46,697 nt of DNA. Source: Rhodospirillales bacterium. Its GTDB lineage: Bacteria; Pseudomonadota; Alphaproteobacteria; Kiloniellales; JAKSDN01. Made by a program: the position numbers and the translations under genes. The notes under the pieces are model-generated. The model did no database searches, was not told the DNA's origin, and worked only from the letters and a program-made list of their open reading frames with translations. Positions 43,335-46,652 of the stretch are shown here, in pieces (position 1 is the stretch's first letter; every line of letters starts with the position of its first letter). The stretch spans positions 1-46,697 of the forward strand of contig JAOUCL010000006.1 in assembly GCA_029859805.1 (NCBI GenBank), read 5' to 3'.

Positions 43335-43553
43335 TTACTTGAAGCGGAAGGTGATGCGACCCTTGGAGAGATCGTAGGGCGTCATTTCGACGTTCACGCG
43401 GTCGCCGGCGAGAACGCGGATGCGGTTCTTGCGCATCTTGCCCGACGTGTGAGCCAAGACCTCGTGATCGTTGTCGAGCTTCACGCGGAACATCGCGTTC
43501 GGCAGCAGCTCGACCACGGTGCCTTGAAACTCGAGCAGGTCTTCTTTTACCAT
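43335..43553 (-). CDS. infA: Translation initiation factor IF-1
   Basis: '[72 protein letters not shown]'. Confidence 0.98.
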
Positions 43554-44026
43554 CCTCTCCCCTTGGTCGCGGGTCAAAAAAAACCGCCCGCCTGCAGGGC
43601 GTTTCAGCGGGTCCGACGGCCAAGCGTCCACCGGGCGCGGCGGATAATACATAATACCCCCACGCGAAACAAACCTTTCGCCGAAGGGGTGGTGGCCCGG
43701 TTTGGATTTGGCGGTGCCCAAAGCGCCAAGCGGAGACGCCTGTCGGCTCAATGTCCGAAATCGGTCATCGTTCCGGTGCGGTGATTGAGGCCGAGATTAG
43801 CCACTCGAGATTAGCCACAATCGGTCATCGACGTCCTGGCCGGCAACCGCTAGTTGGTTCATCGGATGCCGGTGGCGAAGCAGATTGAGCGGTACCTGTT
43901 TTACCATCCTCTGGGCGCCTTGATTGTATGTTCGACCGACTTGTCGACAAGGCGTAATGACTTGGTGTTATCCTGGACCTTCGTTACCCAGGTTTGTCAA
44001 CGATATGGATCGGAGGAGGCCGCATC

Positions 44027-45595
44027 GTGCGTTTCATCCTACGGATCGTTGCCACCGTCATGATGGCTCTGCCATTACCCGCGACAGCCGGCACCGTGAT
44101 GTCAACGGTGCCGGAAAAACCCGAACCTGACGCCCAGTATGTGCTGCACATGCACGGCCGCGGCGTGGACAGTGGGCGCAGCACGGCCATTGCCGGCTAC
44201 CGAAGAGTTGTGAAGGCATTGTCGGAAAAAGGCTTCGCGGTGATAAGCGAGGAACGCCGGGAAGGCATGATCGGCAAGTTTCCCGAGGACCACGAGAAAT
44301 ACGCCGGGAAAATAGCAGATCAGGTGGCGTCCCTGTTGGCCGCTGGCGTGCCAGCCGCGAATATCGCCGTTACGGGATACTCGCGCGGTGGCCTGATGGT
44401 TCAGATTGCATCCGGGCTGATCGCCAATCCCGACGTCAAGTTCGTTATCATAGCCGGCTGCTTCGCCGAGAATGGCGCCTACAAGAGACGGATCTCGTAC
44501 ATAGACTCGAACTATGCACCGAAGTTGAAAGGACGGTTCCTTTCGTTGCGCGATGAAGACGATCCGGACTTCGGTTCTTGCGCGCGGTACTTCGAGAAGG
44601 CTTCCGCGCAGCCGAAGTACAACGAGATCGTCCTCTCCACGGGACTGGGGCATGCCGCGTTCAAGGAGCCGCGCGATGCCTGGCTGAAGCCGCTTGTTGA
44701 TTGGCTTGTTGCGGGCCCGGCTGTGGCCCAGTATCGCGGACCGATTATCGACGCCCACAGCCAAGCCGACCAAGAAATCGAACTTGAAGAAATCCTCGCC
44801 CTGATGGATGAGGCCGAGGTGTCGCGCACCATTCTGTCGTCATGGGGCGGACGGCGTCCCAGGGATCTGACCGCCTTCGCCAAGCGCCATCCGCACCGGA
44901 TCACGCCGGCTCTCCGCACCAAGGGGGGCATATACAGGTCGAAAAAGCTCGAAAAGTACAAGCAGTTCCTCGATAAACAGGCGACTTCGCCGTGGTTCGG
45001 CGCGATGGGAGAGGTCCTCCTCTACCACGCGAAAAAGGAGGTACGCGGCGGCAAGGGATCATACTCCTTGCAAGTGGTTCCCCCCGACGACCCGAGGGTC
45101 AGGGCTGCCCTTGCCTTGGCGCTCAAAAGGCAATGGCCATTCGTCGCCCATATCGAGTTTGCCGAAGCAGGCGCAGACCAGGGCGTGTTCATGGCGAAGC
45201 TGGAGGACATGCTCCGTGCCAACATTGCGCATCCGTTCGCCCTCATCCACATGGGACAACTGGAGGCCAAAGAAGCGGGGCGGCTGATCGACGACCATCC
45301 GAACATCTATTTCATCACCTCGCACGCGACCCCCGACTTCGCCCGTTCGGGCTATGCGTTCACGAACATGTTCGTCGGCCATCACGTCGCCTCGCACTGG
45401 AAAGCGTTGATGGTCCTCCACAAGGACCGCTTCGTCCTCGGCTTCGACAACGTCTTCGCGCGGAACTGGCGAAACAGCTATGTCCAGCAGGTCCAGTTAT
45501 GGCGGCGCGCGCTCAGTGAACTGCCTCCAGACGTCGCCCATGCGGTGGCACACCAGAATGCCGAGCGGTTGTGGCGGCTACCGCCAACGAGGTAG
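44027..45595 (+). CDS. Exported fusion protein: alpha/beta hydrolase domain + amidohydrolase-like TIM-barrel domain
   Basis: GGAGGAGG then GTG at 44027; signal 'MRFILRIVATVMMALPLPATAG'; 'VTGYSRGGLMVQIAS' nucleophile elbow; 'GPIIDAHSQADQEIELEEILALMDEAEVSRTILSS' and 'FVLGFDNVF' in C-half. Confidence 0.75.
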   Translation: MRFILRIVATVMMALPLPATAGTVMSTVPEKPEPDAQYVLHMHGRGVDSGRSTAIAGYRRVVKALSEKGFAVISEERREGMIGKFPEDHEKYAGKIADQVASLLAAGVPAANIAVTGYSRGGLMVQIASGLIANPDVKFVIIAGCFAENGAYKRRISYIDSNYAPKLKGRFLSLRDEDDPDFGSCARYFEKASAQPKYNEIVLSTGLGHAAFKEPRDAWLKPLVDWLVAGPAVAQYRGPIIDAHSQADQEIELEEILALMDEAEVSRTILSSWGGRRPRDLTAFAKRHPHRITPALRTKGGIYRSKKLEKYKQFLDKQATSPWFGAMGEVLLYHAKKEVRGGKGSYSLQVVPPDDPRVRAALALALKRQWPFVAHIEFAEAGADQGVFMAKLEDMLRANIAHPFALIHMGQLEAKEAGRLIDDHPNIYFITSHATPDFARSGYAFTNMFVGHHVASHWKALMVLHKDRFVLGFDNVFARNWRNSYVQQVQLWRRALSELPPDVAHAVAHQNAERLWRLPPTR

Positions 45596-45762
45596 GGAAA
45601 ATTGAGTGCGGATAATGCTGGCATTCGGAACATCCACCTCTGTAGAGCGTGGACACCCAATGTCCCTTTTGGATCAATCGAGGCTAGTCCGACACCTGCC
45701 GGCCCAGGCAAAACGCCAATTCCGGGGACCCAATTCCGGGGACAGTGTATCGATCTCTTTCT

Positions 45763-45809
45763 GCCGGAAATTTCCGATGAAGAGATAAGTAAACTGTCAC
45801 CGGAATTGC
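45763..45809 (+). repeat. 47-bp direct repeat, copy 1
   Basis: gccggaaatttccgatgaagagataagtaaactgtcaccggaattgc. Confidence 0.9.
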
Positions 45810-45900
45810 TCCAGGTCCTCGAAGGTCTTGGGGCGGTGCTTGGAGAGGTCGATGCCGATCTCGTCCATGACCTCGACCACGAAGGGATCGATCTCGAGCG
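45810..45900 (-). pseudogene. Gene fragment, probably low-molecular-weight phosphatase/ArsC-like
   Basis: Reverse-complement frame reads RPLEIDPFVVEVMDEIGIDLSKHRPKTFEDLEQF, with no start or stop context. Confidence 0.6.
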
Positions 45901-45947
45901 GCCGGAAATTTCCGATGAAAAGATAAGTAAACTGTCACCGGAATTGC
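45901..45947 (+). repeat. 47-bp direct repeat, copy 2
   Basis: gccggaaatttccgatgaaaagataagtaaactgtcaccggaattgc, one mismatch to copy 1. Confidence 0.9.
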
Positions 45948-46226
45948 GAGCGAGCCGCGCCCGGGCCGGCGGCGTGGCCGGGCGACCGGTCAATAGTACA
46001 ACAATACAAGCACGGCCCCGTTAGGGCGCGGTCCGCACCCAGCAACAACGCAATAACGCATGCCTGACCCTGGTTCCATGACCCTGGTTCTCAACGCACT
46101 CGTGCGTTCAGGCCAAAGCTGGAACCCAAATCACGCTTGACGGCAACACAGTCGCTGACCCTGGTTCGGATTCTTCACGGAGAACTAGGTATACTGTCCC
46201 CGGAATTGAATTCGAATTGAATTCTA

Positions 46227-46652
46227 TTACTTTTTCTTGCTCATTTCTTCTCGGATTATTTCTTGTACTTCTTCCGGCACTTCCATGATGACTGGGTTCA
46301 CCACATCAATTATCTTGGCATCCCGTTTGCGGATCCATATCTCGATAGGCCCATGCCCTTCAATTTTCCTATCCCGATTATAGCTCCCCTCAATCCGCCA
46401 TCTGTCGGTCTCATCAAATGCCTCAAAGGGTCTTTGCAACTTGACCTCGTTATCGCCATAGACATTTGCAACCACCAATTCGGCAATATCGATGGCGATT
46501 TTCGGGTTATTGACGATACCGCCCTGCATTTCCTGAAAAATGAGGAAATAGCCATCCTGATCGTCAGCCACGGCATGACCTCTAAGCGGTTGCAGGCAAG
46601 CCAATCCCACACACAGAGTAAAAACAATTCCCCAGTTCGACAAGGATCTCAT
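46227..46652 (-). CDS. NTF2-fold immunity-like protein with signal peptide
   Basis: 'PKIAIDIAELVVANVYGDNEVKLQRPFEAFDETDRWRIEGSYN...HGPIEIWIRKRDAKIIDVVNP' resembles NTF2-fold immunity domain; low GC. Confidence 0.7.
   Translation of the reverse strand: MRSLSNWGIVFTLCVGLACLQPLRGHAVADDQDGYFLIFQEMQGGIVNNPKIAIDIAELVVANVYGDNEVKLQRPFEAFDETDRWRIEGSYNRDRKIEGHGPIEIWIRKRDAKIIDVVNPVIMEVPEEVQEIIREEMSKKK

Follow-up and report, generated by a model that had tools for sequence, protein, structure and literature searches.

How did a piece of phosphatase-like coding DNA come to lie between two copies of a repeat near the end of a 46,697-nt contig from a Rhodospirillales bacterium? We refer to this whole stretch (contig C349) as the window, to the organism's own genome as G000 and to two congeneric genomes as G001 and G002. 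An earlier note had read the locus as a passenger element, bounded by REPs, that appeared to have captured host coding DNA, possibly in a process resembling exon shuffling. The region 45717-46208 consists, in order, of a partial end, a composite made up of the palindrome E1, a gene scrap and the half-copy E2, an unrelated repeat and a solitary inverted end, as follows.

45717..45730, plus strand: partial repeat end, 14 bp (CAATTCCGGGGACC, direct repeat D4), in tandem with the left end of E1
45731..45808, plus strand: E1, complete 78-bp imperfect palindrome (TIR dimer) with 29-nt arms, 83% complementary
45809..45906, minus strand: LMW-phosphatase/ArsC-like gene fragment, codons 42-73, 96/98 identical to C199:1807-1904
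45887..45906, plus strand: 20 nt of homeology between the gene and E (ATCGATCTCnnnCnGCCGGA, 16/20 match), the putative crossover site
45901..45946, plus strand: E2, duplicated right half of E, 45/46 identical to E1
46064..46167, no strand assigned: interspersed repeat with TGACCCTGGTTC ends, of a family unrelated to E, with copies in C422, C343, C402 and G001/G002
46181..46208, minus strand: solitary repeat end, inverted with respect to the left end of E1
43335..43553, minus strand: infA, from the ancestral neighbourhood of the parent phosphatase gene (context, outside the element)

The ends, the direct repeats and the gene fragment described in the earlier note are all real. The outer ends read CAATTCCGGGGAC (45717-45729) and CAATTCCGGGGACA (45731-45744), with the inverse at 46195-46208, and the window holds five matches where 0.3 would be expected, a number reached in none of 100 shuffles. 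Two direct repeats of 47 bp were confirmed at 45763-45809 and 45901-45947, with their sole mismatch at 45782, and the interval of about 91 bp between them reads RPLEIDPFVVEVMDEIGIDLSKHRPKTFEDLEQFR on the minus strand, which resembles the LMW phosphatase/ArsC family, as had been noted. The extent of the structure needed correction, since the repeats are as described but are in fact parts of a complete 78-bp palindrome and of a copy of its right half, and the gene-derived DNA reaches approximately 45906, so that it and the second repeat have in common the 6 bp GCCGGA, present in both the gene and E. The idea of a bounded unit is not supported, because 46181-46208 is a separate repeat copy that does not demonstrably bound a unit with E1, and neither is that of a mobile passenger, because no other copy of the composite was found in the organism's own genome and 59 relatives. 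Overall, the earlier interpretation is supported in part. An end duplication resembling 45717-45730 is also present at C331:3556-3570.

E1 folds as a single hairpin (-21.5 kcal/mol, DNA parameters) and is an inverted doublet. Its relatives lie at C331:2634-2710, C331:2041-2117 and C217:2173-2241 and in the two congeneric genomes, and CAATTCCGGGGACAGT, allowing up to two mismatches, has 24 copies in the genome against none for the reversed control, so that the repeats are dispersed genome-wide. Two E copies in G002 (C107) lie about 450 bp apart and matched nothing else among the fetched loci. An Rfam scan gave no match and a promoter scan found none. Like REP/REPIN (BIME) sequences with their RAYT (Bertels & Rainey 2011, PMC3116915), E is a small, non-autonomous inverted doublet hairpin for which the genome encodes a cognate Y1 transposase; unlike them, its family is small (24 ends at up to two mismatches) and the GTAG/CTAC foot is absent from all nine E sequences examined. 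These are therefore not REPs in the strict sense; the sequence fits instead the terminal repeats, with the motif GGGGWSAS, that accompany TIRYT transposases (PMC3733652, PMC6006769), which are relatives of REP/RAYT rather than GTAG-tagged REPs. The TIRtron/TIRYT systems were described with this motif by Di Nocera et al. 2013 (PMC3733652), and TIRYT corresponds to the subclass numbered 2.1 by Quentin et al. 2018 (PMC6006769), the transposases of which have an HTH-like domain at the C-terminus.

The earlier note had suggested a search for a cognate transposase, and one was found: a Y1 tyrosine transposase gene, present in three copies (C402, C75 and C266), each flanked by inverted copies of the same repeats (GGGGACAG, fitting GGGGWSAS). 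The protein matches PF01797 (E 3e-10), has no HTH domain in the Pfam scan, and scores 70.4 bits with the NCBIfam model REP_Tyr_transpos (cut-off 80); a sequence search of the PDB gave no relative. When 80 homologues of the protein from C402 were examined, the expected orientation of GGGGACAGTATACTTA was found in 50 (on both sides in 21 and on one side in 29), compared with five in the wrong orientation and none for shuffled upstream sequence. The arrangement is thus that of the TIRtron/TIRYT systems, namely a Y1 HUH transposase gene between GGGGWSAS inverted repeats, with further repeats scattered as single copies, dimers and clusters.

The gene scrap also has an identifiable source. Its match to C199:1807-1904, in the same genome (98% DNA identity, E 7e-42), lies within an intact gene for a 147-residue LMW phosphatase/ArsC-family protein (C199:1582-2025; PF01451, E 5.9e-17), and the first 32 residues translated from the minus strand of the 91-bp interval are residues 42-73 of that protein. 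The fragment is therefore host coding DNA with an intact parent, and the parent itself lies near the same repeats (C199:1-81 and 178-253); the earlier note had let its reading depend on a homologue of the fragment and on copies of the repeats elsewhere, and both exist. The two differences between scrap and parent are synonymous, and G001 agrees with C199 at both sites. The scrap lacks the catalytic P-loop (CTRNAVRS, parent residues 12-19) and so cannot encode a phosphatase, and its frame contains no ORF of 70 aa or longer. A working gene was thus rejected, and with no gene product or such open frame the proposed likeness to exon shuffling is not supported; the scrap is most likely noncoding and without function. 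The neighbours of the parent on C199 include genes that, from their sequences, we take to be UPF0262 and hisD. Between these two lies an element of approximately 280 bp (C199, locus L048, 3049-3329) with inverted ends TTTATACCAAAGGTCCTTGATAATGACTCATTTC..., and similar paired ends occur by the dozen in G000, G001 and G002; the element is a probable member of a MITE family.

In G001, UPF0262, LMWP, gCA, infA and maf are contiguous; many related loci show this order, with or without gCA, and LMWP adjoins infA in many related genomes. In the organism's own genome, infA and maf lie in the window, and LMWP and gCA on C199. The match of G001 to C199 ends at C199 position 865, and that to the window begins at approximately 43695, at nearly abutting coordinates, and therefore at least 3.0 kb on the window side and 0.86 kb on the C199 side have been inserted. 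The scrap is located inside this inserted DNA, which is lacking from the sister species G001, where the site is empty and the parent gene adjoins infA. From this order, the scrap and its parent would lie a few kilobases apart and in the same orientation, on either side of one insertion point beside infA, on contigs (C349 and C199) that do not join.

Other features were seen in the same stretch. A repeat of approximately 115 bp (43687-43803), with copies in C169 and G001/G002, lies at the edge of the insertion island. The 533-residue ORF at 43994-45595 may encode a fusion protein, its N-terminal part having a weak esterase-like match (BD-FAE, below cut-off) and its C-terminal half matching an amidohydrolase (PF04909). 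Adjoining the repeat cluster, on the minus strand at 46227-46652, is a gene for an NTF2-fold immunity-like protein (PF15631, E 3e-12), and no toxin partner was seen before the end of the contig.

At the junction from the gene to E in the composite, the sequence is ATCGATCTCGAGCGGCCGGA in the parent and ATCGATCTCTTTCTGCCGGA in E, and the 16 matches in 20 are the best of more than 16 000 positions on both strands of C199, where the next best is 14; against the rest of the window, the same E segment gave nothing above 14 in 91 200 positions. At the mismatches, the chimera carries the bases of the gene, which fits a nascent gene strand that re-annealed to E and primed synthesis there. The left junction (GGAATTG/CTCCAGG) falls exactly at the end of E with a microhomology of 0-1 base, so that involvement of the transposase is possible there. 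E2 has E1 as its nearest relative (45/46, compared with 40/46 for the next best among the fetched loci) and was therefore duplicated locally. The divergence of the scrap from its parent (2/98, 2.0%) agrees with that of the two direct repeats (1/47, 2.1%), and both are far below the 13.9% (34/244) seen at four-fold sites between the two species. Equal low divergences are what one recent event would give, although the numbers are small.

The explanation we favour, with a probability of approximately 0.6, is a single local template switch, guided by microhomology, at a palindromic TIRYT-type repeat, which left a dead scrap behind. E1 would have been copied to its right end, copying would then have jumped to the nearby phosphatase gene and proceeded through about 98 bp of it, and the new strand would have re-annealed to E through the fortuitous homeology, after which the right half of E would have been copied a second time. 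All of this would have taken place in one replication event, in the direction given, with the polymerase stalled by the palindrome. The order of the parts (a full E1, 98 bp of the parent gene and the right half of E) supports such a switch, as do the strength of the E hairpin, the placing of the right junction at the single best match between E and C199, the local origin of E2, the equal divergences, and the shared orientation and, from synteny, nearness of scrap and parent. Such a switch would make the structure a tandem duplication with templated insertion; the source is retained, and the junctions have the homeology on the right but only 0-1 base on the left. Against the template switch, the left junction lies where transposase cleavage would also be predicted, a fragment of a beta-lactamase-family gene on C331 likewise begins exactly at an E end, and the linkage of C199 to the window is drawn from synteny.

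A rival is capture by the transposase, in which TIRYT, acting on single-stranded E, missed the site at the right end and mobilized or joined adjacent host DNA; the route would be a one-ended or end-bypass transposition of the Helitron type, leaving E, a piece of gene and a second end. The three cognate transposase genes and the two cases in which a gene fragment starts exactly at an E end (here and at C331:2117/2118) speak for capture, which we nevertheless consider unlikely, because the search gave no parent-gene copy with an E beside or within it, and because cleavage at an end does not explain E2, a half-element whose junction lies inside E and was made through homeology. Moreover, the C331 junction could have arisen by deletion between an upstream E and the interior of the gene, as G001 has an E-like end upstream of the start of that gene. 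The anatomy of the junctions thus fits a local template-switch duplication better than capture. Stepwise decay, in which the phosphatase region had been duplicated over a greater length, E inserted within or next to the duplicate and deletions left the 98-bp piece, would suit a repeat-rich insertion island in a genome with other gene-fragment copies (the beta-lactamase-family pieces on C331, C203 and C22), but we judge it improbable, since both edges abut E with no further parent-gene DNA, E2 derives from E1 with the same divergence as the scrap, and the site is empty in G001. There is also little probability that the composite is an assembly or amplification chimera absent from the organism. 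The assembly comprises 550 contigs, of which several end within repeats or close to them, and the junction, known from the assembly alone, occurs in no second genome; against this, k-mer collapse would need more than the six exact bases that the junctions share at most, the scrap and E2 have two and one private substitutions relative to their sources, and a separate junction of repeat and gene fragment exists on C331.

That second junction (C331, locus L050, 2041-2412) shows that the association of a gene fragment with E is not unique to the window. There, the E copy at 2041-2117 abuts a 272-bp 3' piece of a beta-lactamase-family gene, the parent ORF of which is on C154 (PF00144); related copies of the piece lie on C203, on C22 and in G002, those on C203 and C22 sharing a frameshifting difference from the C154 ORF. 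The flanks of the repeats on C199, C343, C217 and C503 contained no captured genes, only self-matches and repeats (the flanks on C389 and C331 were searched separately). Gene fragments are thus found next to E in some cases, but not as a rule. That TIRYT repeats in this genus repeatedly acquire pieces of host genes and deposit them elsewhere, as a bacterial counterpart of the Helitron type, and that here transcription running downstream from the 43994-45595 gene could yield an RNA with a 98-nt stretch antisense to the phosphatase mRNA, to which the plus strand of the scrap is complementary, is highly improbable.

Pack-MULEs and Helitrons are eukaryotic transposons that capture gene fragments. 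The composite resembles the products of transduplication in eukaryotes (PMC2572040) in that non-autonomous repeats enclose host coding DNA; it differs in being present once, with nothing in favour of its mobility, and in having a junction that fits local copying. It shares with the templated insertions and template switching described in human cells (PMC8421209) a short copy of sequence from elsewhere at a duplication junction and junction microhomology, although here we have a single bacterial case deduced from sequence. In the literature searched, we found no report of a host gene fragment inside a TIRYT dimer.

The locus has the look of an accident of local copying, not of a device for shuffling genes; it is a real and recent copying scar, probably local, at a TIRYT-type palindrome, made of known kinds of parts in an uncommon combination. 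One noncoding scrap is no evidence of a pathway for the spread of coding fragments; if such junctions were common at TIRYT/REP repeats, they would provide one in bacterial genomes. With its parent, its junctions and its empty site all identifiable, the composite offers a clean, recent and dateable bacterial case of a repeat palindrome as the site at which a piece of a nearby gene was copied in.
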